NCBI GenBank assembly: GCA_937896235.1
Contig: CALBMX010000034.1
Coordinates: forward strand, 1 to 64,000
Direction: 5' to 3'
From: an uncultured bacterium
Lineage (GTDB): Bacteria; Planctomycetota; UBA1135; GCA-002686595
DNA length: 64,000 nt
Shown here: piece by piece, positions 34,272 to 64,000 of the stretch
Numbering within the stretch: the stretch's first letter is position 1
Layout of the letters: every line of letters begins with the position of its first letter
Position numbers and translations under genes: made by a program
Notes under the pieces: generated by a model
What the model was told of the DNA's origin: nothing
Database searches by the model: none
Seen by the model: the letters and a program-made list of their open reading frames with translations, nothing else

Positions 34272-35000
34272 CTAATCCGCTAGTCCTACTTTTCCTTCCA
34301 TGTAGGTGTTTAGCCGGTACAGAGCGCGGCTGTGGATTTGACTTACTCTTGACTCTGTGACTTCGAGGATGTCTGCGATCTCTTTGAGTAGCAGGTCCTC
34401 AGCGTAGTACAGAGTGATTACAGACTGCTCGCGTTCGGGCAAGGACTGGATGGCCTTGGTGAGAAGCAGGCGCATTTCGTCCCACTCCGCACTTGACTCA
34501 GGACTCTCACATCGCGGGTCTTCCACGAGGCTTCCCAGGGTCTCCGAGGGACCATCGTCGAGCGAGGTCCGCAGCGCCGCACGTGCACTTTGAAGAATGG
34601 TGTCGACATCCACCTCGTCGATCTCCATCCCCTTGGCTATCTCTTCTGGGCTCGGTGGACGGAGATTTTCCTGTTCGAACTTTTGAACAAAACGGTCGAG
34701 GTCCTTCACTCGATCGCGGCGGCCGCGCGGAAGGAAATCCATTCGGCGAAGCTCGTCTAAGACGGCACCGCGAATACGTGGAAAGGCAAAGGTCGAGAAC
34801 TTCAGCCCACGCCCTGGATCAAAGGAGTCCGCTGCGCCGATCAGTCCGATCATGGCGTAGCCCTCCAGATCTTCACGGTCGGAGCCACCGGGAATATCAA
34901 CATACAGCTGGCCCACGATATGGTGAAGCAGTCCCATGTGATCAACGATCAATTGGTCACGAACTTCCGGGGCCAGAAGGCTAAGCGGCTTGATTGTCAT
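34272..35000 (-). CDS. fliA: flagellar sigma factor sigma-28
   Basis: FliA directs RNA polymerase to late flagellar genes. The 242 residues show region 2 (DREDLEGYAMIGLIGAADSFDPGRGLKFSTFAFPRIRGAVLDELR), a WhiG/FliA-type region 3 (FLPRGRRDRVKDLDRF, then PPSPEEIAKGM) and region 4 (LPEREQSVITLYYAEDLLLKEIADILEVTESRVSQIHSRAL). Its start overlaps the 79-residue membrane-protein stop (ATGA). Candidate target promoters in this window lie upstream of the FlgM-like gene and fliD. A weak ACCGATAA site lies upstream of its own cistron pair. Confidence 0.97.
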   Translation of the reverse strand: MTIKPLSLLAPEVRDQLIVDHMGLLHHIVGQLYVDIPGGSDREDLEGYAMIGLIGAADSFDPGRGLKFSTFAFPRIRGAVLDELRRMDFLPRGRRDRVKDLDRFVQKFEQENLRPPSPEEIAKGMEIDEVDVDTILQSARAALRTSLDDGPSETLGSLVEDPRCESPESSAEWDEMRLLLTKAIQSLPEREQSVITLYYAEDLLLKEIADILEVTESRVSQIHSRALYRLNTYMEGKVGLAD

Positions 35001-35243: not shown

Positions 35244-35272
35244 TTATCGGTAGGTTGACTCCACAGTCTTTA
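35244..35272 (-). promoter_or_regulatory. weak sigma-28-like promoter inside the flagellar operon
   Basis: On the minus strand ACCGATAA (35244-35251) matches the FliA -10 in 7 of 8 bases. TAAAG starts at 35272, but the spacing is about 2 bases longer than consensus. It lies in the flhG-to-79-residue gap and would allow FliA to boost its own expression. Tentative. Confidence 0.3.
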
Positions 35273-36109
35273 GTTAGAAAGCGGTGTTGTTTTTAGTCCT
35301 GCGAGCGAAGCGACTCGAGCGGCGAGGCGCGCGACGCACTGGCCGGATAAAGATCGCGGTTCCGACAGCACAAAAGGGCGTTGCTGCAAGGAGCTCATGC
35401 GCACGGTCCGGGATTCGGGAATCCATCCTGCAAGGCGTGGATTCCTCGATAGAAACCGTTTCGCCACCTTGGAGAGTCGCAGCGCTAGCCCTTCGGCTTC
35501 GGCGGAACCGGAGACGCGATTCATCACCAGCGATGGCGTGGGCACTTCGATTCCGTGCTCTAGGCCCCAGCGATCCAGCGCCTTGAGGATTCCATAGACG
35601 TCCGTAATCGATGCGGGCTCCGGAGTGGCGACCGCGAGAACAAAGTCCGCGGCTGCGGCAAACGCTAGGACGTCAGGGCCAATGCCTGCGGAGCTGTCAC
35701 CCAAGATGAGGTCGTAGTCGCCCCGTAACGACGCGAGTCCGTCGAACAGCCTCGCGCGCCTCGCGCGATCTGGCCGGCCAAGCTCGCCCGTACCCGAGCT
35801 CCCCGCGAGAAGGCTCGCGCCGTTAGAAAGGGGGAAAATGCACTGCCGGATCTCCTCATCGCCATTGAGGAAGTCCTCAAGGTTTCTAGGTGGGCTTACC
35901 TTCGCCAGAATGTTGAGGTTCGCCAGGCCGAGGTCCAGGTCAACAACAAGGACGCGCAAGCCCAGCTTGCCCATGGCCAATCCAAGATTCAACGTGAGAC
36001 TGGACTTGCCGACGCCGCCCTTTCCACCCGTCAAAAAGACAAAGGGTATAGGCAGGCTAGTTCGCTCTTCGGTGACAATTACGCCAAGGCCTTTCGCTTG
36101 TTCGTTCAC
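35270..36109 (-). CDS. flhG: flagellar number regulator FlhG (MinD-like ATPase)
   Basis: FlhG (FleN/YlxH) is a membrane-associated ATPase that controls flagellar number together with FlhF. The 279 residues begin with the deviant Walker A motif TGGKGGVGKSSLTLNLGLA, followed by LRVLVVDLDLGLANLNILA and DYDLILGDSSAGIG (Walker B region; the usual D-T is D-S here). A DQAGQ/FlhF-binding N-terminal motif is not obvious; the first 15 residues are short. Its start overlaps flhF by 4 bases. The flhF-flhG pair indicates regulated, probably polar flagellation. Confidence 0.95.
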   Translation of the reverse strand: MNEQAKGLGVIVTEERTSLPIPFVFLTGGKGGVGKSSLTLNLGLAMGKLGLRVLVVDLDLGLANLNILAKVSPPRNLEDFLNGDEEIRQCIFPLSNGASLLAGSSGTGELGRPDRARRARLFDGLASLRGDYDLILGDSSAGIGPDVLAFAAAADFVLAVATPEPASITDVYGILKALDRWGLEHGIEVPTPSLVMNRVSGSAEAEGLALRLSKVAKRFLSRNPRLAGWIPESRTVRMSSLQQRPFVLSEPRSLSGQCVARLAARVASLAGLKTTPLSN

Positions 36110-37110
36110 TGGATTTTCCCCGTCAAGAGCAGGTCGGCGAAGCGTGAGGGCGACGCGCGGTGGATGTTTTTGTTTACGTCTTGCCCATCGCAGAGGAACG
36201 AAGCTTCGATTCCGTAGCGGAGGAAGAATTCGAGGGCAATTCCGCTTTCACGGGTCTCGTCAACTTTGGTCAGCACGGCTGACCGTGGGTTCAGGACGGC
36301 GTAGGCGGAGCGCGCCCTCTCGAGCGCATCCTTCCCTGACGCCGCGGATAAAACCAGGTAGGTATCGAGCTCGGCGTGCTTTCCCGCACGCTCAAGGTCG
36401 CGCGCCAAGACCATTAGATTTTCGGTATCAAGAGGGGAGCGCCCGGCCGTGTCTACGAGCAGAACGTCGAAGTCTCCAGCGGCGTCGATCGCAGACGCGA
36501 GCTCTTCCCCCCCATGAGCGACAAAAAGAGGTACCTGAAGCACTTCGGCGTAGGCGCGAAGTTGGTCAACGGCGCCTACTCGATAGGTGTCCATCGTGGC
36601 AAAAGCAATGCGCCGCCCACTCCGAAGTAAGAGCACGGCGAGTTTGGCGAGGCTAGTTGTCTTGCCGACCCCGGTTGGACCGACGACAGCCAAGACCCGT
36701 AAGTTTCCACTCGCCTTGGGTGACGTAGGCTTCTTGAACAGCCGGCCAACGATCTTCGCTGTTGCATCAATTGCGTGGACGCCCTGAGATTGGAGGCGCT
36801 TGACCGGGCCGAGAATACGTTCGACTAAGAGGCTCGAGCAGCCCGAGGCCAACAACCGCTGGCGCACCTCGACAATATCTGCCGACTCCACAAAGCCGCC
36901 CTGCGGTGTAGGTATGCTTCCACGTGGTGCAATACGCTTCTCTTTGCCGGCGGCACCGCCCACTTTGGGTGGGTCGGTAATAGAGAGGGTCACTCCTCCG
37001 CCCGCAATCGTTTCCTGTGCAAGCACGACGGCATCTTCACCACAAACCGAGCGAGCTCGTTGCAGTGCGTCTTCCATCGTCCTTCCTTTTACGCGATGTA
37101 TTTGCATCAT
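36106..37110 (-). CDS. flhF: flagellar placement GTPase FlhF
   Basis: FlhF is an SRP-type GTPase that marks the flagellar assembly site at the pole. The 334-residue protein is compact and has the FlhF B-domain start (MQIHRVKGRTMEDALQRARSVCGEDAVVL), a short linker, then the NG domain. The NG domain shows VVGPTGVGKTTSLAKLA (G1), ATMDTYRVGAVDQLRAYA (G2), LLVDTAGRSPLDTE (G3) and LTKVDETRESG (G4). Its ATG overlaps the flhA stop (TAATG) and it overlaps flhG downstream, so translation of all three is coupled. Confidence 0.96.
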   Translation of the reverse strand: MMQIHRVKGRTMEDALQRARSVCGEDAVVLAQETIAGGGVTLSITDPPKVGGAAGKEKRIAPRGSIPTPQGGFVESADIVEVRQRLLASGCSSLLVERILGPVKRLQSQGVHAIDATAKIVGRLFKKPTSPKASGNLRVLAVVGPTGVGKTTSLAKLAVLLLRSGRRIAFATMDTYRVGAVDQLRAYAEVLQVPLFVAHGGEELASAIDAAGDFDVLLVDTAGRSPLDTENLMVLARDLERAGKHAELDTYLVLSAASGKDALERARSAYAVLNPRSAVLTKVDETRESGIALEFFLRYGIEASFLCDGQDVNKNIHRASPSRFADLLLTGKIQ

Positions 37111-39242
37111 TAGTCATCCATCCTGACTATGCCTTGGGTCTCCACGGACTTCGCGGGGACAACCTCGTTGTAGGACAGCACCGCCACCTTGGGCATGGAG
37201 GCCTGCACAAGCTCGTGCAAGAAGCGACGCACATTCGAACGCACCAGCAAGACGACGTCTTTTCCGCCGGAGGTGGCCCCGGCAACCGTCTCTGCTACGT
37301 TCTCCATAAGTCTCTGTAGCCATGCCGGGTTAACCGGTGCGGCATCGGAGTCTGTTCTGTTCCCAACCGAGGCGGCTAGGCGCGCCTCGAGGACGGGATC
37401 CAAAGTCACTGCATGGACGGTACCGTCGCGGTCGGCGTGCTTCTCGCAGAGCGCGCGGCCAAGGCGCTGACGAACAAGCTCCGACAAAATCTCTGGGTCG
37501 CGACTGCGCGCGACGTTGTCGGAGAGGCTCTCCAGGATCACCGCCATGTTGCGGATCGGAACGGCCTCCCTGAGCAAGTTGCGCAAGACTTGATGAAGCT
37601 CACCGAACGTCATTCGCGTGGGGAGAAGCTCCTCGACGATTGCGGGTGAGGACCTCTTTAGATTCTCGACAAGGTCCATAACGTCATCGCGGGTGACGAG
37701 CTCGCCAAGGGACGCCTGGATGATCTCGGAGAAGTGAGTCACCAAAACACTCGTCGGATCAATCACCGTAAAGCCATTCATCTCCGCCTCGTCCTGCATG
37801 GATTCATGAATCCACCACGCGGGGAGCCCGAAGGTTGGGTCGACCGTTTCTTTGCCCTTCAACTTGCCCGTTGCAAGCCCCCCATCGAGCGCCATAACGT
37901 GGTTTGGCTCTACGGTTCCCCGGGCGATCTCTTGGCCACCAAGAAGAATGCGATAGGCATTTGGTTCGAGGCGCACGTTGTCTTTGATGCGAACTTGGGG
38001 AAGGAGCACGCCGTCCTTCATCGCGATCCGCCGGCGCAGCTGCCCGATGTGATCCAGGATGCCCGTACCGCTCTTATCTTGTACTAGAGAGATCAGGCGA
38101 ATGCCGATTTCCAACGACAGGCGATCTACGTTCAGAAGACCCTCCACCTCGTTGTCGGCCTCTGCGGATTCCGCGGCTTCGTCACTATGAGGCGAACGAT
38201 CCATACCAGGTGAGAAGGTGGTTTCGCCGTCGCCTAGCATGGACTCCGCGTTTTCAACACCTCTTGTTCCTGTCCACAAAACGGCCAAAATACTGGCGAG
38301 CACGAAGAAAGGAATCGCGGGCATTCCCGGGAGAAGCCCGAGGCAGAACACCATGCCCGACGCGATCAAGGTCGCTTTGGGGCGACTGGACACCTGAGCC
38401 AGCAGGTTGCTTCCCAGACTGTGATTTGACTTCGCCTTGGTGACCAATACGGCCGCGGCGGTAGAGACAAAGAGTGCCGGGATCTGCGAGACCAGGCCAT
38501 CTCCAATCGTGAGGTTCGTGTACGTGTCGGCTGCTGCCGCAATCGACTTGCCACTCATCGCGCCAATCGCGATTCCGCCCACTAAGTTGAGCGCTGTAAT
38601 GATTAGGCCAGCGATCGCGTCACCGCGAACGAACTTACTAGCACCATCCATGGCGCCATAAAATTCGGCTTCGCCGGACACGAGCGCCCGCCTGCGCTTG
38701 GCCTCGGCCGAGTCGATCAAACCTGCGTTGAGGTCGGCATCGATAGCCATCTGCTTGCCTGGCATGGCGTCGAGCACGAAGCGTGCGGACACCTCACTAA
38801 TCCGGCCAGCACCTTTGGTGATCACCACAAACTGGATGATGACCAAAATCAGGAAGACGATGATGCCGACGGTGCGGTTGGAACCAACGACATAGGAGCC
38901 GAAGGCCTCGATTACGCTTCCGGCCTTTCCCTCCGAGAGAATCAATCGGGTCGAGGCGACGTTTAGTCCCAATCGAAACAGCGTGACAAACAACAGGATG
39001 GTCGGGAAGGTGGTTAGCTCAGCAGAGCTCTTCACGTTCATCGTGACCAGCAGCAACATCAACGAAATCGTGATGTTGAAGGCCAGCATGATATCGAGCA
39101 CGAACGGGGCAACCGGCGTGAGCAGCGTGAGAAGCATCGCCAAAACGCCGACGCCAACGATCCAGTCCGCGTACCGAACGATCAGAATGCCAAAGCCCTT
39201 GGCTTCGCTATTCGTACCGTTATTGAAATGGGGTTCGGTCAT
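37110..39242 (-). CDS. flhA: flagellar export gate protein FlhA
   Basis: FlhA forms the nonameric export gate of the flagellar type III secretion system. The 710 residues contain about eight N-terminal transmembrane helices (to about residue 330). The conserved cytoplasmic FHIPEP-type loop is visible as VLDAMPGKQMAIDADLNAGLIDSAEAKRRR. The C-terminal cytoplasmic domain starts near DRLSLEIGIRLISLV and includes the chaperone-binding region. Length and order are normal. It lies between flhB and flhF in the canonical order. Confidence 0.97.
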   Translation of the reverse strand: MTEPHFNNGTNSEAKGFGILIVRYADWIVGVGVLAMLLTLLTPVAPFVLDIMLAFNITISLMLLLVTMNVKSSAELTTFPTILLFVTLFRLGLNVASTRLILSEGKAGSVIEAFGSYVVGSNRTVGIIVFLILVIIQFVVITKGAGRISEVSARFVLDAMPGKQMAIDADLNAGLIDSAEAKRRRALVSGEAEFYGAMDGASKFVRGDAIAGLIITALNLVGGIAIGAMSGKSIAAAADTYTNLTIGDGLVSQIPALFVSTAAAVLVTKAKSNHSLGSNLLAQVSSRPKATLIASGMVFCLGLLPGMPAIPFFVLASILAVLWTGTRGVENAESMLGDGETTFSPGMDRSPHSDEAAESAEADNEVEGLLNVDRLSLEIGIRLISLVQDKSGTGILDHIGQLRRRIAMKDGVLLPQVRIKDNVRLEPNAYRILLGGQEIARGTVEPNHVMALDGGLATGKLKGKETVDPTFGLPAWWIHESMQDEAEMNGFTVIDPTSVLVTHFSEIIQASLGELVTRDDVMDLVENLKRSSPAIVEELLPTRMTFGELHQVLRNLLREAVPIRNMAVILESLSDNVARSRDPEILSELVRQRLGRALCEKHADRDGTVHAVTLDPVLEARLAASVGNRTDSDAAPVNPAWLQRLMENVAETVAGATSGGKDVVLLVRSNVRRFLHELVQASMPKVAVLSYNEVVPAKSVETQGIVRMDD

Positions 39243-39254
39243 GATTTAGATCCG

Positions 39255-40361
39255 TTAGACAAGTACTGGAGGCGCTGACTTGTCGGCGCGGTAGACATGG
39301 GCGAGGACAGTTGCCATAGCGGCATACAGGTCCTCGGGAATGGGCTGACCGACTTCGACGTCGGCGTAGAGGGCGCGGGCGAGCGGGCGGTTCTCGTGGC
39401 AGAGAACGCCGCTTTCGCGAGCTACCTTTTTGATGCGCTGGGCCATGAAGTCAACACCCTTCGCCACCACGACCGGGGCGGCTAGAAGAGGGTTTCCATC
39501 TTTGTCTCGGGGGTAGCTGATCGCTACGGCGTAGTGCGTTGGGTTCGTAACGACAGCCGTTGCTTTCGGCACATCGGACATCATGCGATTGTTCGCCATC
39601 TCGCGCTGCATATGGCGAATGCGCGCTTTGAGGTGAGGGTCACCCTCGGTCTGCTTCGACTCCTCTTTGATCTCCTGCTTGCTCATGCGCTGCTCTTTTG
39701 AGAACTGTTGGCGCTGAAACAGGTAGTCGATCAAGGCGAGAAAAATCACGACGACCAGAATCGCCATGACCGTTACAAACAGGATCTTCCCGAGCGCGGA
39801 CATCATGGGCCCAATGTCGGTCATCCCCATCGAGAGTAAGTTGGGAACGTTCATGTAGCCAACCGAAACAACAATGCCGCAGATCAGAATCAGCTTGGCC
39901 ATGGCAAACCCGACCTTGACCCAACCGCGCATGCTGACCATGCGGCTCGCGCCTTGGATTGGATTTAGCTTTGAGAGATCGGCAGCAATCGCTTTGGGAG
40001 TAAATCGAAGCCCCGCTTGAGCCGCACCGGCTAACAGGGTGCCAAACGCTATCGGCGCGGCAATCGCGAGCAGGGGGAGGAACATGTCCCGCCCGAGTTG
40101 ACTCAACACTGCAGAGGCTGCGATGTTGTCTATGTCAGTGCGCGCTAGGCTTGAAGCCATCACCGGCGCAGATCGAAGGACCTGGCCAAAGCTACCCGCA
40201 ACCATCCCGCCGGAGACGAGGAATGCTCCAACTGCCAAGACAAGACCTACGGCGGCAATCATCTCTGTCGAGTAGGCCACCTGACCTTTGTCGCGGGTTT
40301 GGTCCAGCTTGTGGCTGGTTGCCTCTTCCGTCTTTTCGTCCTTAGGTGTTTGATCAGCCAC
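39255..40361 (-). CDS. flhB: flagellar export switch protein FlhB
   Basis: FlhB controls substrate specificity of the export apparatus. The 368 residues begin with the typical KTEEATSHKLDQTRDKGQVAYSTE segment, followed by four transmembrane helices. The cytoplasmic domain carries the autocleavage motif NPTH at residues 273-276 (VVTNPTHYAVAISY) and the downstream LARALYADVEVGQPIPEDLY region. The start overlaps the fliR stop by 8 bases. Confidence 0.97.
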   Translation of the reverse strand: MADQTPKDEKTEEATSHKLDQTRDKGQVAYSTEMIAAVGLVLAVGAFLVSGGMVAGSFGQVLRSAPVMASSLARTDIDNIAASAVLSQLGRDMFLPLLAIAAPIAFGTLLAGAAQAGLRFTPKAIAADLSKLNPIQGASRMVSMRGWVKVGFAMAKLILICGIVVSVGYMNVPNLLSMGMTDIGPMMSALGKILFVTVMAILVVVIFLALIDYLFQRQQFSKEQRMSKQEIKEESKQTEGDPHLKARIRHMQREMANNRMMSDVPKATAVVTNPTHYAVAISYPRDKDGNPLLAAPVVVAKGVDFMAQRIKKVARESGVLCHENRPLARALYADVEVGQPIPEDLYAAMATVLAHVYRADKSAPPVLV

Positions 40362-41151
40362 CGATCACCCGCGCTGTAACGACCTCGCCGGACATTCCGT
40401 CTAGGAGAAGTGAGAGCCACTCGGACTGCAGATCGTAGATGTGCATCAAGGCTGGGGAGATGATGGGTGCAAAGATGTACATCGCGATCATCGAGAGCGC
40501 GACTCGCAACGTAAATCCCATCTCCAGTACGTTGATCTGAGGAACGACCCGCGCGAGTACGCCGATCAAGACCGAGAGCAGCATCAAGAAGATCATGACA
40601 GGCGCTGCGAAGGTGATGCCTGCCTTGAACGTCTCACCGAAGAACTGAACGATCAAGTCCACGATAGACAGCTCTATATTTACTCGACCTACGGGGGCAC
40701 GTTGGAATGAGTCGGCTAGCGCTCTTAGCAGGACGTGATGTCCGTCTACTGCCAAAAACCCGATCAGAAATATTGTGTCGTAAATCCTGGAGACAAGGGC
40801 TGTCTGCACACCCGTTATGGGGTCGGCCTGGTTAGCCATTCCGAGCCCCATTTGGTTCCCGATAAGATCACCCGCCATTCGAGCGATGAGCTCAATAAGG
40901 ATCAAGACAAACGCCAACGAGAGTCCGATCATGAGCTCGCGCAACGCCATGATTCCGAACACAATGGGACTGAGGTCCTGGCTCAAGTCCGCGCCTGTTG
41001 ATCCAAAGAGAAGGAACGAAATCGCGAACACCAAAGAGATCCTATAGCCCGAAAAGGCCGCACCCGTTCCGAGTACAGGAGCGGCTACGAAGAGCGCTCC
41101 CGTTCGAACGAGGTACAGGCCGAAGGCGGCTATGGTTGCAGTGGTGAGCAT
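40354..41151 (-). CDS. fliR: flagellar export protein FliR
   Basis: FliR is an integral part of the FliPQR export pore. The 265 residues have the expected six or so hydrophobic helices, with segments such as LRELMIGLSLAFVLILI, GDLIGNQMGLGMANQADP and PQINVLEMGFTLRVALSMIAM that match the family. It follows fliQ by 25 bases and overlaps flhB by 8, so the genes are co-transcribed. Confidence 0.95.
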   Translation of the reverse strand: MLTTATIAAFGLYLVRTGALFVAAPVLGTGAAFSGYRISLVFAISFLLFGSTGADLSQDLSPIVFGIMALRELMIGLSLAFVLILIELIARMAGDLIGNQMGLGMANQADPITGVQTALVSRIYDTIFLIGFLAVDGHHVLLRALADSFQRAPVGRVNIELSIVDLIVQFFGETFKAGITFAAPVMIFLMLLSVLIGVLARVVPQINVLEMGFTLRVALSMIAMYIFAPIISPALMHIYDLQSEWLSLLLDGMSGEVVTARVIGG

Positions 41152-45416: not shown

Positions 45417-45455
45417 CAAGCAAACTAGAATCCCCATACCTACGGCAATCGCTCC

Positions 45456-55881: not shown

Positions 55882-56703
55882 CTAACCTTGAAGTAAGCTC
55901 AAAGCAATCTGGGGTTGTTGATTGGCTTGCGCCAGGATGGACGCAGAAGCCTGTTGAAGGATTTGGTTTCGAGTGAGGGTTGCAGTCTCTGCAGCCACGT
56001 CGACGTCTCGGATTCGGCTCTCGGCCGCTGCGAGGTTTTCGACAGAGGTGGCAATCGAGCGCATCGCACTCGACATACGGTTCTGGCTTGCACCGAGCTG
56101 CCCTCGGAAGGAGACAACGGTGTTGACTGCAAGGTCAATCGCACCGAGTGCTGCCGATGCGTTTGTCGCGTCGATGACACTCAATACGTCGATGCCTAGG
56201 TCGCCGTCCGTAGTTCCACCGAGTGCTACGGTGATCACTTGGCCGGAGTCTGCGCCCGTTTGGATGTCGATCGGTGGGCTCAAGCCGTCAAGCAGATTGA
56301 TTCCGTTGAACGCCGTAGTGAGGGCGATTCTGTCGATCTCAGCGACCAGCTCGGTGAACTCTGCGTTCAGTGAGGTTCGGTCGGATGTGTTCAAGGTTCC
56401 GTTGGCCGATTCGATGGCGAGTTCGCGCATCCGGACCAAGTTGGAGTTCACTTCGGAGAGCGCGCCCTCTGCGGTTTGCACCAGGCTGACACCATCTTGG
56501 GCGTTGCGCTGGGCCATTTGAAGCGAGCGGATCTCGCTGCGCATGCGCTCGGAGATGCCGAGGCCGGCGGGGTCGTCCGCTGCGCTCACAATCCGGAGTC
56601 CGGAGGAGAGGCGAGCGAAGCTGCTCTGAAGTTGGTTCGAGTGATTGGCCAGGTTTTTCTGGGCAGTCATCGAGAAGATGTTGGTGTTGACTCGGAGGCT
56701 CAT
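55882..56703 (-). CDS. flagellin D (protein identical to flagellin B)
   Basis: A 273-residue core flagellin with the same translated sequence as flagellin B. I use the ATG at 56703; the frame extends to 56763 with unrelated residues. The leader carries the same CACGGGAACCA element just upstream of the ATG as gene B. Differences at the gene ends are synonymous, so selection or gene conversion keeps the protein constant. It is divergent from the regulatory gene at 56917, with about 210 bases between the two starts. Confidence 0.95.
   Translation of the reverse strand: MSLRVNTNIFSMTAQKNLANHSNQLQSSFARLSSGLRIVSAADDPAGLGISERMRSEIRSLQMAQRNAQDGVSLVQTAEGALSEVNSNLVRMRELAIESANGTLNTSDRTSLNAEFTELVAEIDRIALTTAFNGINLLDGLSPPIDIQTGADSGQVITVALGGTTDGDLGIDVLSVIDATNASAALGAIDLAVNTVVSFRGQLGASQNRMSSAMRSIATSVENLAAAESRIRDVDVAAETATLTRNQILQQASASILAQANQQPQIALSLLQG
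55936..56688. repeat. duplicated flagellin core block, copy 2
   Basis: The counterpart of 53343-54095, in the same orientation. Flanking intergenic sequences of the two genes differ apart from a short leader element, so the repeat is confined to coding sequence. Confidence 0.85.
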
Positions 56704-56916
56704 TGTTGTGGTTCCCGTGGAATGAGTGGTGAGTTGAAAAATCCAGAGGCGCTTGCCGGTCATCGTCCAATGACCTTTTTGGTGGCGTGCTCCTTTGGTG
56801 TCCAGAGCAGTTCTCGGACCCCGCGGGTTCGGCTGAAGCTTAGATCGTGATTTTGTGTGGAAAGTCGTGCCCCAGCAGCCGAAGGTGGCGTCCAGAATCG
56901 GAGAACCTTCATCTCT

Positions 56917-57807
56917 ATGTATTACGACGACCCAAAACGCCCGGCAAAGATCTTTGGATCTCCTCTTACGAAGCGCCTCGAAGCCGAAATGATGCGCCTT
57001 GCGTCGACGCCGAAGACCACGGTTTCGATCCGGGGCGAGCTAGGTGTGGGCAAGCGAACCTTGGCAAACCGCCTGCACCTAGAGTCCGCACGGCGAGCTG
57101 GCCCCTTTGTCGCGCTGGGTGCGGGCGAGGCTCTCTCCGCAGCTGTGCTGGAGAGCGCGGTTGGGGGAACGCTGTACCTGTCCGACGTCACCAGCCTGGG
57201 AGCAGATGAACAAGAGGCGCTTGGCGCTCTTTTAGCCGGAAGGCTGGATTCCATCGCTCCCGAGCCTGGAATCCGGGTGATCTCGGCAGCCAGGGAGGAC
57301 CTTGAGCAAGCGGTCGCAGAGGGGCGGCTGCGGGAGGACCTCGAATATCGGCTGAACGTCCTGACGCTCGAGATCTCGCCACTCCGGGAGCGTGTTGAGG
57401 AGATTCTGGACTACGCCTGGCACTTTTTGAGCACCTTCGCGGCGCGTTTGCGGCTGGGGACTCCGGATTTGGCCCCCGACGCGGAGTCCGCGCTGCTCGG
57501 GCATATGTGGCCCGGGAACCTTCACGAGCTTAAATCTGTCATGGAACGGTCGTTTTTTGGACTGAAGGGCGCAAATATCCTAATTACGGGCGCCACTCTT
57601 GGGATTTCCGGCCTGGACGACCTCCCCATGGGGGTCGATTCGCTCTCCAGACCGGCCTCGGACACCCTCTCCCTCGAGATTCTAGAGGAGGAGGCCGTTC
57701 GCCGCGCCTTATCTGCCAGCGCAGGAAATCGCAGCCTGGCAGCACGCCAGCTAGGGATCCATAGGACGACTCTCTACCACAAGATGCGCCGCTTCGGGAT
57801 TCGGTAG
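56917..57807 (+). CDS. sigma-54 activator-like AAA+ protein lacking the GAFTGA loop, with Fis-type HTH
   Basis: I use the ATG at 56917 (296 residues); the frame also opens at 56857. The AAA+ core has Walker A GELGVGKRT (40-48), the arginine-finger region REDLEYRLNVLTLEISPLRER and MWPGNLHELKSVMERS (sensor II). The end is a Fis-type helix-turn-helix (GNRSLAARQLGIHRTTLYHKMRRFG). The segment that should hold ESELFGHEKGAFTGA is missing: about 12 residues separate FVALGAGEAL from GGTLYLSDV. Walker B reads LYLSDV instead of LFLDEI. It therefore should not open sigma-54 complexes normally and may act like TyrR, or as a DNA-binding partner. No receiver domain is present. It is divergent from flagellin D and upstream of a kinase-like operon. 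Confidence 0.8.
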   Translation: MYYDDPKRPAKIFGSPLTKRLEAEMMRLASTPKTTVSIRGELGVGKRTLANRLHLESARRAGPFVALGAGEALSAAVLESAVGGTLYLSDVTSLGADEQEALGALLAGRLDSIAPEPGIRVISAAREDLEQAVAEGRLREDLEYRLNVLTLEISPLRERVEEILDYAWHFLSTFAARLRLGTPDLAPDAESALLGHMWPGNLHELKSVMERSFFGLKGANILITGATLGISGLDDLPMGVDSLSRPASDTLSLEILEEEAVRRALSASAGNRSLAARQLGIHRTTLYHKMRRFGIR

Positions 57808-58042: not shown

Positions 58043-58720
58043 ATGACCACCGAATCCCACGCCTCCTCCAGAGAGAGCTCGCCCCAAACCGCCTGCGTAA
58101 CCCCAGCTGCAAACAACACCGTGCTTGGACACGCGGTGCAGCGTGGATTGCGCATTCCAATCGATAGCCTGCGGACTTCGATGGAGAACTTGCGGAGCGA
58201 ATTCGGCGGTGTCTCTATGAGTGATCTTGCGCTGGGCGAGGTGCTCGCCGAGGTGGATCGACTAGGTCGCAATGTGCAACACCTCCTGGATTACGCCTAT
58301 CAGCCCGAGGCTCACGCAATCGAATGCACGGTGAACGAGATCGTTTACACCGCTCGCTTTCAAGTCCCCCACGACATGTGGAGTGCTCTTTGGATTGCGC
58401 GGGATTGCGACCTTCCGGGCATGATCGTCGACGGCCCCGTGCTCTCGAGATCGATTGCGCGTTTGATCGAAGCTGCGGCGCCACTGGCCCAGAGCGGAGT
58501 GCTTCTCAATGTAAAGCGCACCGAGAAGGGCGTCTCTTTCTCCATCACCTACCAAGGCGCATCCGACCACCTCGGCGACCCGACCGGCTTGTGCCACGCC
58601 ATTGCATCGCGCGACCTAGCCGTCATCGGCTGCCCACTGACCGAGACGGCCAGCCGCTACGGCGACACGACAATCACCATCTGCGTTCAGAGCAACATGC
58701 TCTCGGAGTCGGCCGCCTAA
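58043..58720 (+). CDS. pseudo-histidine kinase (degenerate DHp and CA domains)
   Basis: A soluble 225-residue protein that aligns by eye with the kinase core of the PAS histidine kinase at the end of the same cluster. In the H-box HELRNPLNA becomes RGLRIPIDS, so the phospho-acceptor His is Arg. In the N-box RNLIANAL becomes ARLIEAAAPL, losing the Asn that binds magnesium. The D-x-G of the first G-box is not recognisable (YQGAS). It should neither autophosphorylate nor bind ATP normally. A scaffold, kinase inhibitor or phosphotransfer-like dimer is plausible. Its stop overlaps the next start (TAATG). It begins 235 bases after the AAA+ gene, with no good Shine-Dalgarno sequence. Confidence 0.6.
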   Translation: MTTESHASSRESSPQTACVTPAANNTVLGHAVQRGLRIPIDSLRTSMENLRSEFGGVSMSDLALGEVLAEVDRLGRNVQHLLDYAYQPEAHAIECTVNEIVYTARFQVPHDMWSALWIARDCDLPGMIVDGPVLSRSIARLIEAAAPLAQSGVLLNVKRTEKGVSFSITYQGASDHLGDPTGLCHAIASRDLAVIGCPLTETASRYGDTTITICVQSNMLSESAA

Positions 58721-59709
58721 TGCACCCTCCACGCCCTACTCTTTTCGTGCTCTTGGTGGCGGACGCCCTCGGCAACACCGAGCGCCTCGTGCCACTCGCC
58801 GCTGCACTGCGCACGCGCGGTCACGACGCCATCATGTGTTTGGATTCCGAAGCGGCGCTGGCCCAACCCACTCCCGATGTTCTTGTGGTTGACGCTGGCC
58901 GCTGTGAGCACACGACTGCGAACCTAGCTATCACCGGCGCCTTCCTGGCACCGGGTAATGAGATGCGGACGATTGCAATCCTCGCTATGGAGGACTACAT
59001 CACTTGCCGCGACGCACTCCGCGCTGGCGCCAACGACGTCTTCGCTGGCAGCTTCAGCATCGACGAAGTCCTTACAGCAATCGAAACCAAAACGCCGTGC
59101 ACCTCGACGTCCGCATTGGAAGCAACCCGCAGCTTGCACCGCAGCTTTGAGACGGGTGCAAAAGGCGAGGAGTCTCTCTGCCGCGAGCTTGTCGCCTTCG
59201 CCACACGCGTCGGCCTGGGCCGCAGCCATCGCTTCCGCATTGCAACCGCCGCTGCCGAAGTTGCCAACAACGCAACCGTGCACGCCTACGATGGCGCGAC
59301 TGGGCCGCTGCTCCTCTCCGCGAGTTACGACGGGGATCACATGTTCGTCGAGATCCGCGACCTCGGCGAAGGCTTCTCCCAAGGTGACTCCCCACTCGAA
59401 TCCGAAGGCGCCTGCCAGGGAATGGACATCATTCGCGGCCTTGCCGAGCGCGTCGACATCGATAGCACCAACGCGGGCACCAAGGTCACCCTTGAGTTCG
59501 TCCTGACGCCGACGTGCTTCGACGAAGAGCCGTCTTCCGCCGAGCATCTTGACTACCTCACACCCTCCGCTACTCGCCGCTTTTTGGAGCCATCCGAAGC
59601 CGGCGCAGACGAGTTCTACAGCCCTGCACTTAGCAGCACCGTCGGTCGCATTTTGCTGGCCTCGGTGAGCGCAACTTCCGGCCGCTCCCAATCAGCACTC
59701 TGGAGCTGA
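58720..59709 (+). CDS. pseudo-receiver plus RsbW-like GHKL ATPase
   Basis: The ATG at 58720 overlaps the previous stop (TAATG); the upstream extension of the frame to 58324 overlaps the pseudo-kinase and is discarded. Of 329 residues, the first 118 look like a receiver fold: LFVLLVADALG, VLVVDAGR as strand 3, AILAMED, then VFAGSFS where a Lys-Pro is expected. The middle is a GHKL domain of the anti-sigma/serine-kinase type, with N-box AAAEVANNATVHAYD, EIRDLGEGF and GMDIIRGLAERVDI. This resembles RsbW/SpoIIAB rather than histidine kinases. The last 60 residues are unrecognised. It could phosphorylate or sequester a partner under control of the receiver-like half. No STAS anti-anti-sigma gene is in the window. 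Confidence 0.75.
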   Translation: MHPPRPTLFVLLVADALGNTERLVPLAAALRTRGHDAIMCLDSEAALAQPTPDVLVVDAGRCEHTTANLAITGAFLAPGNEMRTIAILAMEDYITCRDALRAGANDVFAGSFSIDEVLTAIETKTPCTSTSALEATRSLHRSFETGAKGEESLCRELVAFATRVGLGRSHRFRIATAAAEVANNATVHAYDGATGPLLLSASYDGDHMFVEIRDLGEGFSQGDSPLESEGACQGMDIIRGLAERVDIDSTNAGTKVTLEFVLTPTCFDEEPSSAEHLDYLTPSATRRFLEPSEAGADEFYSPALSSTVGRILLASVSATSGRSQSALWS

Positions 59710-59725
59710 ACGACGCCCCTTCGCC

Positions 59726-60550
59726 ATGACTGACACCGACGACCTCTTCGAATTCGGAGACCTTGACGATACCGACTCTCTCGAGATTGATCTCGACGAG
59801 CTCTTCGGTGATCTCGAAATGCTTGCAATCGATCTCGATGTAATCGAGAGCGCGCCCGCAGAGCAAGTGCTTGCGGAGGCGACACCCGCCCCCGTCAATG
59901 CCTCGGCGGTAGCAGCGCCCGCCGCTGCACCCGCTGCCGTCCCGGCTCCCGTCGCAACGCAGGCAACAGCGCCACAGTCAAGCCAGGAGAACCAAGTCCT
60001 CCAGCCGGTAGCCCCTGCGGCTCAACCGCAGGCCCACTTCCAACAGCCACCCTTCGCAAACACAGGCGTGACTTCCAAGTTACGCCTAACCAAGACGACA
60101 GCGGCAATCGTCTTCGCAAGCATAGTCACCCTCGCGAATGTTGCCGTCACGATGGGCGGACCCTCCAGGCCTACCGTACAGACTCCCCCTGTCGCGGGCG
60201 CGACTCAGCTTGTGAATGTTCCAACTCCATTCCAATACGACAATAGCGCCGTCCAGGGAGAGATCGAGGTCCTTCGGGCCGAAGTCGAAATGCTGCGTTC
60301 CCAGGGCTCGCCGACAAAGCCGATCCCCGCTAGCTACACCAAAGGTGGCCACCCCGCCTTCGACGATGTCAGCAAAAGCCTTCTAGAGGGCAACTTCGTC
60401 GTAGCGCGTCAAACCCTCTACGGACTGCTCGCCATCGTCGATCGCTTCGACACCTATGAGCGAGACGCCATCGAGGCCACCGCCAGCTACATGCTTGCCG
60501 ACAGCTGGCGCATGGAAGCCGAAATGCCAACAACCGTAGGAGTCGAGTAA
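59726..60550 (+). CDS. membrane protein with acidic cytoplasmic tail and periplasmic helical domain
   Basis: The 274-residue protein has a strongly acidic N terminus (DDLFEFGDLDDTDSLEIDLDELF, continuing to about residue 40). An Ala/Pro/Gln-rich linker (about 45-115), one transmembrane helix (about 125-145, TAAIVFASIVTLANVAVTM) and a periplasmic part follow. The periplasmic part has a short coiled coil (VQGEIEVLRAEVEMLRSQ) and a helical end with TPR-like spacing. The family is not recognised. The acidic tail alternates D/E with L/F/I in short repeats, as in binding peptides for basic partners. It follows the RsbW-like gene by 16 bases and overlaps the next gene by 1, so it is probably the transmembrane link of this cluster. 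Confidence 0.6.
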   Translation: MTDTDDLFEFGDLDDTDSLEIDLDELFGDLEMLAIDLDVIESAPAEQVLAEATPAPVNASAVAAPAAAPAAVPAPVATQATAPQSSQENQVLQPVAPAAQPQAHFQQPPFANTGVTSKLRLTKTTAAIVFASIVTLANVAVTMGGPSRPTVQTPPVAGATQLVNVPTPFQYDNSAVQGEIEVLRAEVEMLRSQGSPTKPIPASYTKGGHPAFDDVSKSLLEGNFVVARQTLYGLLAIVDRFDTYERDAIEATASYMLADSWRMEAEMPTTVGVE

Positions 60551-62013
60551 TGTTGAAAGCACTTCTTCTCGTCGCCCTGCTCTCCTCGAGTGCATGGAGT
60601 CAAAACGATGTGAACCTTGTTGTTAGCGGTCATAACAACAACGGTGAGGCTCTCGTCTCTGTCAACGCAAAGAGCATGCGTGTGAGCGCTGTGGTCGAGG
60701 CCATCGCTGCCGAGTTCGGCCTAACGGTCTCAGGTTTCGCACCCAACACGATTCACCCATTGGTCACAGCGACCCTAAAGGACCGCCCTCTCGACTCCGC
60801 CGTCGAGATCGTCCTTGGAAGCTCTGGCCTGACCTACGAGCGCACCGGCAACACAATCTTTGTCCACGAGTACAGCCCAGGCGATCGCGAAGAGCTCTTA
60901 ATGTCCGCAAAGATCGCCTATGCCCATGCGGTTCGTGCTTTCCCCGAAAACGAGATGGCTCCCAGCGCGCACTTGAGCCAAGGTTGGGTTGAAGAGCAGT
61001 ACGGAAACTTCTCCACAGCGATCTCCATGTACGAGATCATCCCCGAGAAGTACCCCTTGTACAAAGAGGTCGCCGCAGCTTACTTTCACATCGCGCGCTT
61101 GAACGAAGAGCTCGGCAATTGGCGCGACGCGATTCAGTCCTACGACAGTCTTGAAAACCTACGTACCGAACACGAGTTTCACTCGGCCCAGCGGCTCGGT
61201 CGCGCCCGTTGCGATGTCGAGCTAGGGAATCCCCGTGCTGCCATCTACAAGATTGAAGTCTTGAATATGGAGCGTCGCACAAGCGACCCGGAGGAGCGCA
61301 CGGCCCGCCTGATGGTTCACGCCCGTGCGAACAACGGACTGCGCGAATACGGATCTGCACTTCGCGATCTGGATGTGATCGCCCAGCTGGACTCTCCGCT
61401 TGTCGCCACACCCGAATACCTGCAAGCAACAGCGATCTCCCTGGAAGGCCTGGGAATGTTCGGACCTGCCGCCCAGGCGTGGCTTGCCTATGCACACAAG
61501 GTCGACGGACAGAAGAGGCTAATCGCTGTGGAAATGGCGGTTGAGCTCTATCTTGATGAGGACGATGAGGTCAGTGCGATCCACGCGCTTCGATTTGGAA
61601 AAGAGGTTGGCCTTAGCGCCAAGCTCACCAGCCTCCAGCTTCAAATTGATGAGCGGCTTGGGCTCAACGTCAAACAGGAAAACCAAGTCGACGACCCGAC
61701 GAAACGTCTGGAGCGCGCTCAGGTCGCTTGGGATGGCGGTGACGCAATCGGCGCCTATCGCGAGATCTCCGCCCTCACCGATCGACACGGCGACTTCGCC
61801 GAGTCCACCCGGATTCAGCTCTACTCCCTCTGGGCTCGTTGCACGGCATCCATCGAAGGAATGCCGGCCGCCGTCGGCTTGATGCGCGAGCTTCGCAACA
61901 ACCTGGATGCACTAGAAAACCGCTCGGCGCTCGACCTCGTTGCAGCAGAACTCTACGAAGCAGCTGGCCTCTTTGATGAGGCCGTCGACTCCTACGGAGG
62001 AATATACCGATGA
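60550..62013 (+). CDS. exported TPR protein with STN-like N-terminal domain
   Basis: The 487-residue protein starts with a signal peptide (LLLVALLSSSAWSQ). Residues about 20-100 resemble a secretin/TonB short N-terminal (STN) domain: VSVNAKSMRVSAVVEAIAAEF, PLDSAVEIVLGSSGLTYERTGNTIFV. The remainder is TPR-like: YGNFSTAISMYEIIPEKYP, LGNWRDAIQSYDSLEN, YGSALRDLDVIAQ, then a C-terminal pair ending LFDEAVDSYGGIY. STN domains bind partners in outer-membrane systems; here it has no secretin or receptor barrel. The start overlaps the preceding stop by 1 base and the stop overlaps the next start by 4. Confidence 0.7.
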   Translation: MLKALLLVALLSSSAWSQNDVNLVVSGHNNNGEALVSVNAKSMRVSAVVEAIAAEFGLTVSGFAPNTIHPLVTATLKDRPLDSAVEIVLGSSGLTYERTGNTIFVHEYSPGDREELLMSAKIAYAHAVRAFPENEMAPSAHLSQGWVEEQYGNFSTAISMYEIIPEKYPLYKEVAAAYFHIARLNEELGNWRDAIQSYDSLENLRTEHEFHSAQRLGRARCDVELGNPRAAIYKIEVLNMERRTSDPEERTARLMVHARANNGLREYGSALRDLDVIAQLDSPLVATPEYLQATAISLEGLGMFGPAAQAWLAYAHKVDGQKRLIAVEMAVELYLDEDDEVSAIHALRFGKEVGLSAKLTSLQLQIDERLGLNVKQENQVDDPTKRLERAQVAWDGGDAIGAYREISALTDRHGDFAESTRIQLYSLWARCTASIEGMPAAVGLMRELRNNLDALENRSALDLVAAELYEAAGLFDEAVDSYGGIYR

Positions 62014-62996
62014 TGAAATACACAGGCACACTTGCCCTGGGAATGGGCGTCCTACTAGGCGTTCCCGCTTTCACCTTGGGAGGCGGGCTTCCCGGCTCTC
62101 TCAAAGATGCGCTCAACGATACGGTCCGGGCAATCGATGTTCTAAACCAGCTTGAAGAGCGCATGGGAACCGGCGAAGCCATTCCCGTGGACGCGGTCAA
62201 GAAACTCACCGAGGTTGCAATCCTGGATCCACGCGGACGCGACGAGCTCTTGGAGACACTTCGCAACGAAGTGGGTAGCTTGCAGAACAAAGTTGATGTG
62301 GCCGAGGCTTCCGTCGCACCCCCCCTTGCAGAGATCGATCCCCTCAACGGAACGAGCGCTTACGGGCCGGAATATTCTCAACCGAGCGTCACCGAAACCG
62401 TCGAGGACACCTCCACCGGCAACTTCGATGGACTCAACATCGCAGGAGTCTCCACAGGAATGTCAACGACCCTGCGCACATCCATCGCAGTGGGCAGTGG
62501 CTCCTCAAACGGTGGCCGTTCGGCCTTTGCGCCTGGAGAGACCGGGCCCGTAGCCACCTATCCCCTTCCTACTGAAACAGGAACGGAGACTGGTGCCGTC
62601 GACGAAGCGCGGAGCTCAAACTCGACAGCCACCGAAACGGGCCCGAAGATTTCCACGACGGATTCCACCAATAAAAAGCCAACGCCTGCGCCCGCCGCAC
62701 AATCACCTGAAGGCAAGGGCTATAGCGCAAACCCGCTACTTCAAGCGAAGGCTTGCTACCGCGCCAAGCGCTATCAGCAGGGCCTCGATCTATTGGTCGG
62801 CGCTTCGAAGAGCGCAGAGGTCACCTTCTGGAAGGCGCGGCTCGAAGACAAGTTGGGCAACTTAGATGAGGCGATTCGCCTCTATACCTTGCTCAAAGAC
62901 GACATGGCGGCTGGCGAGTATGCGGCCAAAGCCGAGAGCGAACTGGAGTTCTTGGTGTGGCGACGCGACTACGAAACCAAAGGTGACTCCAAGTGA
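62010..62996 (+). CDS. exported protein with low-complexity linker and C-terminal TPR-like repeats
   Basis: The 328-residue protein has a signal peptide (TGTLALGMGVLLGVPAFT). A short helical domain follows (about 25-95), then a Thr/Ser/Gly-rich disordered stretch (about 100-235) and a C-terminal TPR-like pair (LLQAKACYRAKRYQQGLDLL, KLGNLDEAIRLYTLL). The product is probably periplasmic. The family is not recognised. Its ATG overlaps the previous stop, and the histidine kinase GTG overlaps its own stop, so translation is coupled. Two exported TPR proteins in tandem upstream of a kinase suggest a protein-protein sensing scaffold. Confidence 0.65.
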   Translation: MMKYTGTLALGMGVLLGVPAFTLGGGLPGSLKDALNDTVRAIDVLNQLEERMGTGEAIPVDAVKKLTEVAILDPRGRDELLETLRNEVGSLQNKVDVAEASVAPPLAEIDPLNGTSAYGPEYSQPSVTETVEDTSTGNFDGLNIAGVSTGMSTTLRTSIAVGSGSSNGGRSAFAPGETGPVATYPLPTETGTETGAVDEARSSNSTATETGPKISTTDSTNKKPTPAPAAQSPEGKGYSANPLLQAKACYRAKRYQQGLDLLVGASKSAEVTFWKARLEDKLGNLDEAIRLYTLLKDDMAAGEYAAKAESELEFLVWRRDYETKGDSK

Positions 62997-64000
62997 GCCA
63001 AGTCCTTTCCCATACGCAGCAAGAGGACAAGCGAACGGACGAGATCGAGTCCGCGATGCGGACCTTCTCGGAGATCTCTTCGAACCTGCTGCAGAGCTAC
63101 AACGCACTTGAGGCGCGCGCTGCGCGCGTCGAGGACGAGCTCGAAGTCACCAACCGTCAACTCGAGGCTAAGGTCTGCGAGCTCGACGAAGTGACGCGGA
63201 ATCTCGAGGCCATCCTCACGGCTCTGCCTACAGGCGTTGTTGTTCGAAACAGCGCAGGTGCTATCGTTCGAATCAACGATGCTGCTGCCCAGACCCTTGG
63301 GCTGGATGAGGCGCACAAGAGCGAAGTGATTGGCAAGTCCGACATTCCAGCACTTGCCACTGCGCGCGCTGGAGACGGCGAGGTCGTCTTGGCGGGTGGC
63401 AACGCCCGCGTCCTCGACCTACGCTCATCCATGATTCGCGACGACCGAGGCGTAGTTGCTGGCACCGTCGAGATCATCGATGATCGCACGGAGATCACTG
63501 CCCTGGCCGAGCGTCTGCACTCTATGGACAAGATCGCCTCCCTTGGAACGATGGCTGGCGGCATTGCACACGAACTTCGCAATCCACTGAATGCCGTTGC
63601 TGGATTCGCCGACCTAATGAAGGCTCGAATCGACTCTTCCGCTATCGAAGATCCCAAAGTTATCCGCTGGGCCGACTTGATCTGTCAGGGCGCCCTCGAA
63701 GCAAACGCAATCATCACCAGCCTGCTCACGCTCTCGACCCCCGAAGGTCTCGAGCGCGTCGCAATTGAGACTGACGAGCTGTTCCAAGAAGCGCTGCACG
63801 CAGCCTCAACACCTGGCTCGGAACCCATACAGGCCTCGCTTGTTATCGAGGTCCCGTCCTTCTGTGGCGACCGCATCAAGCTGCGCCAAGCACTTCGCAA
63901 CCTGATTGCGAATGCCTTAGAGGTCGCGCCGGGTGCACCACTCTTGATCAAAGCAATCTCAACCGAAGAGGGCGAGCTCGCCCTTGAAGTACACGACGCT
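62993..64000 (+). CDS. PAS histidine kinase (3' end beyond window)
   Basis: The start is a GTG at 62993 (VSQVLSHTQQEDKRTDEIE) overlapping the previous stop. The frame is open to the window end, giving at least 336 residues. A coiled coil (about 15-80) leads into a PAS-like domain (about 85-170: ILTALPTGVVVRNSAGAIVRIN, then VEIIDDRTEITAL). The HisKA H-box AGGIAHELRNPLNAVAGFADLM has His193. The N-box QALRNLIANALEVAP and part of the ATPase domain follow before the cut. No transmembrane helix is present. The organisation matches NtrB/FlgS-type soluble kinases, which pair with sigma-54 activators. The degenerate activator at 56917 is the only regulator visible, so a true partner may lie downstream. 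Confidence 0.88.
   Translation, partial: MSQVLSHTQQEDKRTDEIESAMRTFSEISSNLLQSYNALEARAARVEDELEVTNRQLEAKVCELDEVTRNLEAILTALPTGVVVRNSAGAIVRINDAAAQTLGLDEAHKSEVIGKSDIPALATARAGDGEVVLAGGNARVLDLRSSMIRDDRGVVAGTVEIIDDRTEITALAERLHSMDKIASLGTMAGGIAHELRNPLNAVAGFADLMKARIDSSAIEDPKVIRWADLICQGALEANAIITSLLTLSTPEGLERVAIETDELFQEALHAASTPGSEPIQASLVIEVPSFCGDRIKLRQALRNLIANALEVAPGAPLLIKAISTEEGELALEVHDA

Follow-up and report, generated by a model that had tools for sequence, protein, structure and literature searches.

A planctomycete flagellar operon head with a candidate periplasmic TPR scaffold and a regulatory cassette retained after flagellar loss

Gene content of the locus

The window, meaning the whole stretch of 64,000 nucleotides that was analyzed, comes from a Planctomycetota metagenome-assembled genome (MAG) and ends in six plus-strand genes (58043-64000). 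All six frames are open and tightly coupled, and the overlaps and the single 16-base gap described by the sequence-only reading are real. O1 (58043..58720) encodes a degenerate histidine kinase with a HisKA and HATPase fold in which the phospho-acceptor His is replaced by Arg. It overlaps by 1 base with O2 (58720..59709), which consists of a receiver-like domain, an RsbW-type HATPase_c_2 domain, and a conserved C-terminal domain ending in ALWS. The 16-base gap separates O2 from O3 (59726..60550), which combines a disordered acidic cytoplasmic tail, one TM helix, and a short periplasmic TPR-like helical segment. O4 (60550..62013, 1-base overlap with O3) is exported and carries an N-terminal STN (secretin N0-like) domain followed by a TPR superhelix, while O5 (62010..62996, 4-base overlap with O4) is exported and comprises a linker and a C-terminal TPR-like pair. 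The last gene, HK, overlaps O5 by 4 bases and encodes a cytosolic PAS histidine kinase with an intact H-box. It begins at 62993 and is cut by the window edge at 64000; followed further on the contig (C34, locus L002), it ends at 64204 and is 403 aa long.

Immediately 3' of HK lies a gene for an NtrC-type sigma-54 regulator (RR), followed by flgB-flgC-fliE-fliF-fliG-fliH-fliI-fliJ-motE-motA-motB-motB-fliL. Consequently, O1 to HK form the head of a flagellar operon. These downstream genes were invisible to the sequence-only reading because the window stops inside HK, and the link to flagella that it suspected is borne out by them as well as by the joint loss of O3-O5 and HK with FliG described below. 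One gene of the operon (L002:16123-16842) is a candidate E-ring component of the MotE/FlgY/FlbB type, with an MgtE_N match that is sub-threshold in four members (E 3e-4 to 3e-3); proteins of this type have a coiled coil ahead of an MgtE_N-like domain.

Further flagellar genes lie on the minus strand of the window. They include a FliA-type sigma factor (34272..35000, TIGR02479 above cut-off) in the same flagellar gene region, as well as, in the same cluster, polar-flagellum and export genes identified with NCBIfam, namely MinD/FlhG-like, FlhF, FlhA, FlhB, and FliR (35270..41151). The left border of the cluster is an M1-peptidase-like gene (M1; 29370..31736, minus strand), which adjoins O1-O2-RR in relatives without flagella. 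The neighbor REG (56857..57807, plus strand; Pfam Sigma54_activat and HTH_8) had been called activator-like. It is indeed an NtrC/FleQ-like AAA+ regulator with a Fis-type HTH, but a degenerate one, as the receiver and the GAFTGA loop found in many relatives are missing from the window copy. A scan for sigma-54 promoters in the window and in the upstream regions of 20-odd relatives revealed no excess over shuffled sequences that would single out the O1-HK operon, and none was found upstream.

Domain assignments

Relatives of O1 and O2 were found with position-restricted profiles; all-frame iterative HMMs drift into HK and RR. Profile matches of O1 include KdpD, ZraS, and DivL, and HisKA/HATPase_c Pfam domains are recognized in 7 of 16 relatives. 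The H-box His of canonical histidine kinases is absent from the window O1; it is present in 4 of 30 family copies, which form a subclade, and is intact in families f8 and f54. In O2, HATPase_c_2 is recognized in 20/20 relatives and Response_reg in 16/20. The window copy of HATPase_c_2 (Pfam E 5e-14) conserves the motifs E..N..HAY and DxGxGF and the G2 box, as expected of an RsbW-type ATPase. A canonical receiver has an acidic pocket, an Asp, and a Lys, of which the window O2 keeps the Asp and has lost the acidic pocket and the Lys; the receiver is intact in f8 and f54. No SpoIIE (PP2C) domain was found in O2, which therefore does not have the HsbR architecture of receiver, PP2C (SpoIIE), and HATPase_c_2. 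That full architecture is found at the O2-equivalent place only in the counterparts from family f49.

The first 45 residues of O3 contain 17 acidic and no basic residues, and one TM segment is present. The strongly acidic cytoplasmic tail noted earlier is real; however, alignment shows that its conserved part is not overall acidity but a short (D/E)DLFxF motif (DDLFEF in the window). The structure model of O3, which is of low confidence and too poor to build on, has helices at 123-143 and 210-266. O3 shares the topology of PflB, with a TM segment ahead of a periplasmic segment, but the latter amounts to roughly one and a half helical pairs. When the profile of O3 was compared with the PDB, no convincing match came up.

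O4 is present in 34/37 family genomes and has STN and TPR domains in Pfam, with profile matches to the PilQ N-domain and to CpoB/YbgF. Its hydrophobic N-terminal segment and TPRs fit PflA, but an STN-like domain takes the N-terminal position. Confidence in the structure model of O4 is moderate (pLDDT 62, pTM 0.33). Among the generic TPR matches that Foldseek listed for this model, 9hmf_K, a periplasmic scaffold of the C. jejuni flagellum, ranks 17th. Given the moderate model and the low TM-scores to all PDB matches, the fold match of O4 is unspecific. O5 matches profiles of TPR proteins and is kept adjoining O4 in other families.

HK contains PAS, HisKA, and HATPase_c domains, and its His-Glu (HE) motif is present in 32/32 relatives. 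In RR, the phospho-acceptor Asp and GAFTGA/GSFTGA are found in 26/26 flagellates and are lost in 3/6 aflagellate copies. The intact H-box of HK, the Asp, GAFTGA, and Fis HTH of RR, and their encoding with rod/MS-ring genes are all features of FlgSR/FlrBC-like genes; neither protein reaches an equivalog cut-off in NCBIfam. The domain identities proposed from the sequence hold for all six proteins, with weak TPR matches in the case of O5.

Conservation and flagellar loss

Conservation of gene order in relatives had been proposed as a check, and the six-gene order recurs, far beyond chance, in more than 30 genomes. Within the family, almost every flagellate genome keeps it. The operon core (O4-O5, often with O3 and HK-RR, followed by flgB) extends to 13 further planctomycete families. 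O4-O5 lie upstream of flgB in f8, f11, f24, f26, f27, f34, f43, f49, f52, f54, f60, f64, and f71, with weak matches in f11, f43, and f52; in f34 and f60 they directly precede flgB, with no HK-RR between. At three loci (L111, L159, and L165), motAB stands beside O3/O4. O3-O5 are absent upstream of flgB at the loci of families f12, f17, f32, f68, f76, and f79, and are consequently not universal. O1 and/or O2 are absent from some flagellate relatives that retain O3-O5-HK-RR, and some flagellates with RR have lost O2 or both O1 and O2.

Nine genomes of the family have no FliG, and the six loci examined contain neither O3-O5, nor HK, nor any flagellar gene; among genomes carrying the full operon, FliG is present in 9/9 that were compared. 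O1-O2-RR remains in genomes that have lost O3-O5, HK, and the flagellum. In these aflagellates, the arrangement M1-[O1-O2-RR]-DAO occupies the place of the M1-flagellar cluster-DAO of flagellates. A paralogous origin of this cassette was rejected, since each genome has one O2 and the M1 and DAO flanks match those of the flagellar cluster. Both the O2 tree and an independent M1 tree indicate at least three losses of the flagellum, with four as the best estimate, and the retained cassette is under purifying selection (omega 0.15-0.34). O3-O4-O5 and HK therefore follow the flagellum, whereas O1-O2-RR was spared in place in at least three independent cluster deletions.

Interpretation

The best explanation of the locus, held with about even confidence, is a flagellar operon head of two modules, in which O3-O5 would act as a scaffold and HK-RR as a checkpoint, with O1-O2 modulating RR. 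The first module would comprise O3-O4-O5, HK, and the downstream RR. Membrane-anchored O3 and exported O4 and O5 may form an uncharacterized scaffold in the planctomycete periplasm, part of the basal body or stator of the flagellum and comparable in function to the TPR proteins PflA and PflB around the FlgY/MotE E-ring. HK-RR would serve as a FlgSR/FlrBC-like checkpoint at which completion of the MS-ring/export complex triggers activation of the rod and hook genes; the activity of such systems in other phyla depends on the MS-ring/rotor/export complex (PMC7064773). In the second module, O1-O2-RR, the proteins O1 and O2 would go back to a histidine kinase paired with a receiver protein, with phosphotransfer residues mostly lost. 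They may constitute an ATP-binding complex that modulates RR by contact, as the retention of the genes suggests, and this second task would extend beyond motility. Operon continuity, domain identities, gene order, loss together with FliG, repeated retention of O1-O2-RR in place, and the residue losses are observations; the scaffold, checkpoint, and contact roles are inferences. Points against this reading are the STN domain of O4 in place of the PflA beta-sandwich, the unspecific fold match of O4, the absence of O3-O5 at some flgB loci, and the negative search for an upstream sigma-54 promoter. The loss of O2, or of O1 and O2, in some flagellates with RR tells against contact regulation.

A scaffold is not the only role open to O3-O5. 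Their closest bacterial TPR profiles are CpoB/YbgF/YfiO and PilQ N-domains, as would be expected of general envelope assembly factors (BamD/CpoB/secretin-pilot like) serving the P/L rings or the outer membrane. Co-loss with flagella and a location beside flgB, motAB, and motE make this role unlikely. O2 could alternatively be a partner-switching kinase of the RsbW/HsbR type, with an anti-sigma or anti-activator role, acting on FliA or a STAS antagonist in place of FlgM, which was looked for and not found. The intact HATPase_c_2 motifs, weak SpoIIAB/RsbA matches, the f49 counterpart, and one STAS-PilZ-like protein, located beside a GAF-PP2C phosphatase in another part of the genome, fit such a switch. 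However, the operon has no STAS gene, O2 has no phosphatase domain and outlasts the flagellum, and the proposal is rather doubtful.

The sequence-only reading had treated the six genes as one undescribed signaling system. An integrated pathway of this kind, in which O4/O5 sense the state of assembly or of the envelope and the acidic tail of O3 signals to O1/O2 and HK to set RR, would accord with family-wide order, translational coupling of all genes, and the conserved cytoplasmic motif of the membrane-crossing O3. The gene set, however, dissociates in both directions: O1-O2-RR stands alone in aflagellates, O3-O5-HK-RR occurs without O1 and/or O2 in flagellates, and O4-O5 precede flgB without HK-RR in f34 and f60. 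The (D/E)DLFxF motif of O3 also persists in members without O1 or O2. The single system is not supported, and the pathway is decidedly improbable. That O1 and O2 are decaying two-component relics without present function, as the missing His of most O1 copies and the eroded receiver of O2 might suggest, is very improbable, because a comparison of congeners finds O1 better preserved (73%, dN/dS 0.14) than O2-O5 and purifying selection continues after flagellar loss.

Returning to the scaffold, checkpoint, and cassette, a more specific reading, given somewhat less than even chances, is that O3-O4-O5 are an undescribed three-protein periplasmic TPR motor scaffold that evolved apart from PflA/PflB, and that the operon also houses a cassette of phosphorylation-dead O1-O2 and a sigma-54 regulator. 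Because the cassette was kept at least three times after flagellum loss, it would have a conserved job beyond motility. A literature search for a planctomycete motor scaffold found no report in the library searched. If O3-O5 are motor scaffold parts, imaging and genetic studies of the motor gain named candidates for a whole phylum. The repeated in-place survival of O1-O2-RR is a natural experiment which shows that a regulatory cassette in a flagellar operon can function independently, and it makes the mode of action of degenerate kinase/receiver pairs clearly testable.

Comparison with known systems

The comparisons with PflA/PflB and FlgSR are drawn from PMC12222027, PMC13023049, and PMC7064773. 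PflA has a signal peptide, an N-terminal beta-sandwich, and a TPR superhelix; in PflB, a long array of TPRs in the periplasm follows a TM segment at the N-terminus. The Campylobacter/Helicobacter motors pair an exported TPR superhelix with a membrane-anchored TPR protein, as do O4 and O3, and the E-ring (MotE/FlgY) candidate and stator genes adjoining O3-O5 resemble the PflA/PflB setting. Unlike PflA, O4 has STN instead of a beta-sandwich; in O3, a short TPR-like segment stands in place of the long array of PflB; and O5 is an additional, third protein. The likeness would be one of function; no sequence homology emerged.

FlgS/FlgR, FlrB/FlrC, and FleS/FleR resemble HK-RR in that a soluble kinase and a sigma-54 regulator are encoded beside rod/MS-ring genes. 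HK-RR is, in contrast, coupled to O3-O5 and O1-O2, and no report of such coupling was found for these systems. FlhF and the MinD/FlhG-like gene both occur in the genome that carries HK-RR, another likeness to the FlgSR/FlrBC/FleSR settings.

HsbR of Pseudomonas and RsbW/SpoIIAB share with O2 an HATPase_c_2 domain behind a receiver-like domain. In O2, by comparison, the receiver is eroded, PP2C is missing, a further conserved C-terminal domain ends in ALWS, and no STAS partner is encoded close by. Atypical histidine kinases of the DivL type share with O1 the HisKA/HATPase fold without the His; unlike them, O1 is a small soluble protein that has no PAS domains and is tied to O2.

Setting in the flagellar operon

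O1 to O5 and the PAS kinase gene HK form six coupled plus-strand genes. HK (62993 onward) stops at 64204, outside the window, and is followed on the contig by RR, an NtrC-type sigma-54 response regulator gene, then flgB, flgC, fliE, fliF, fliG, fliH, fliI, fliJ, a MotE-like gene, motA, two motB genes and fliL. Genes for FliA, a MinD/FlhG-like protein, FlhF, FlhA, FlhB and FliR, as well as flagellins, lie within the window. This places the six genes at the head of a flagellar operon, bearing out the link to flagella suggested by the sequence-only reading. The genome (4.26 Mb, 88.5% complete) contains two RpoN genes; its nearest named relative is the Planctomycetota MAG JAQXEK010000013.1.

At least four flagellins are encoded in the window. 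Two minus-strand genes (53289-54110 and 55882-56763) encode identical 273-residue proteins, which suggests recent duplication or gene conversion; the second frame is open for 20 residues further upstream. Two large proteins remotely similar to N-glucosyltransferase (NGT) and a methyltransferase are encoded at 43416-48775, with the export genes on one side and the flagellins on the other; this may be a flagellin glycosylation island.

Conservation across genomes

The order REG-(O1)-(O2)-O3-O4-O5-HK-RR-flgB-flgC-fliE-fliF-fliG is kept throughout the family of the window genome, with O1 and O2 optional. Single-sequence searches recover O4 in 34 of 37 family genomes and, at that sensitivity, in 0 of 24 genomes from other families of the order. 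Using profiles, O4-like genes are found directly upstream of flgB or HK-RR-flgB in families f8, f11, f24, f26, f27, f34, f43, f49, f52, f54, f60, f64 and f71, the matches being weak in f11, f43 and f52. O3-O5 were not found upstream of flgB in f12, f17, f32, f68, f76 and f79. Here and below, gene absence is judged from profiles, in incomplete MAGs; genes of high-GC relatives were called with a simple ORF chooser. In f34 and f60, O4-O5 adjoin flgB with no HK-RR in between, and motA-motB stand beside O3/O4 at three loci (L111, L159, L165), an arrangement that associates O3-O5 with the flagellum, not with the kinase.

REG (56857-57807) is an NtrC-like regulator gene that has lost both receiver and GAFTGA loop; copies in the family range, by degrees, from intact to degenerate. 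HK encodes a soluble kinase whose His-Glu is kept in 32/32 relatives. In RR, Asp and GAFTGA/GSFTGA are present in 26/26 flagellate relatives.

Loss of the flagellum

Profile searches detect O2 in 36 of 48 genomes of the family and in two from f8, and find FliG absent in nine family genomes. The six FliG-less loci fetched lack O3-O5, HK, REG and every flagellar gene; all retain O2-RR, and five retain O1. This cassette is bordered by an M1-peptidase-like gene (29373-31601 in the window) and a DAO oxidoreductase gene. In flagellate genomes where M1 and O2 share a contig, they lie about 20-50 kb apart with flagellar genes in between, and in G017, G031 and G012 the flagellar operon has DAO past its opposite end; in the window genome only a weak 27% match to DAO turned up. 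Because aflagellate and flagellate loci share these flanks, the comparison indicates that O1-O2-RR stayed in place as flagellar genes were deleted. The O2 and M1 trees give at least three losses, best four, and the cassette is afterwards under purifying selection (omega 0.15-0.34). Flagellates lacking O1, O2 or both still carry O3-O5-HK-RR. The proposal of one single system is not supported, as O1-O2 and O3-O5-HK each persist without the other.

At three post-loss loci (L196, L198, L203), representing two lineages, neither the phospho-acceptor Asp nor the GAFTGA loop of RR remains. This fits phosphorylation-independent action, and these proteins have likely changed from sigma-54 activators to non-sigma-54 DNA binders.

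Origin and role of O1 and O2

O1 (58043-58720) is a degenerate histidine kinase by family profile, which matches KdpD, ZraS and DivL across the whole DHp-CA region; the window copy has no Pfam match of its own. HisKA and HATPase_c are each matched in 7/16 relatives. The phospho-acceptor position holds Arg in the window and His in 4/30 family copies, and the His is kept in f8 and f54. O2 (58720-59709) combines a receiver-like domain, an intact HATPase_c_2 and a conserved C-terminal domain, commonly ending in ALWS. Receiver proteins encoded at this locus in f8 and f54 share the terminal ALWS/CLWS (59695-59709 in O2), which looks like a short docking tail.

The same slot holds O1 with His and O2 with complete receiver, HATPase_c_2 and CLWS terminus in f8, and a complete small histidine kinase with a stand-alone receiver ending in CLWS in f54. 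In f49 (L113-L118), a receiver-SpoIIE-HATPase_c_2 protein, the HsbR architecture, lies between an NtrC regulator and O3 inside the flagellar operon. In the family of the window genome, O1-O2 are thus best read, from these slot contents, as a degenerate two-component pair.

Every functional step for O1-O5 is one that we infer. Because O1-O2 are retained with RR, the simplest reading is that they would modulate RR by contact. O2 may instead be a partner-switch protein of the HsbR type. A STAS protein with a C-terminal region PilZ-like by eye is encoded elsewhere in the genome (L178, G000:C65 near 52074), divergent from a GAF-PP2C-like phosphatase gene, and is a possible partner for O2.

Comparison with known systems

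The cytoplasmic tail of O3 (59726-60550) is acidic and disordered, its conserved part being (D/E)DLFxF; the protein also has a single TM helix and, in the periplasm, a short helical segment. O4 (60550-62013) combines a hydrophobic segment at the N-terminus with an STN domain and a superhelix of TPRs, and O5 (62010-62996) is exported with a TPR-like pair at its C-terminus. Their closest model is PflA/PflB, a TPR spoke-and-rim scaffold that connects E-ring and stators (PMC12222027, PMC13023049), and the MotE-like gene of the operon is an E-ring candidate. O4 has STN where PflA has a beta-sandwich, and by domain content it is not a PflA. Fold search with the O4 model is unspecific, the C. jejuni scaffold ranking 17th; both structure models are weak, with two input sequences each.

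HK-RR is best modelled on FlgSR/FlrBC/FleSR, a checkpoint found in polar flagellates. There, MS-ring/rotor/export-apparatus assembly is what the kinase senses, and the regulator, together with sigma-54, activates genes for rod and hook (PMC7064773). By analogy, HK-RR would act as a checkpoint dependent on the same assembly.
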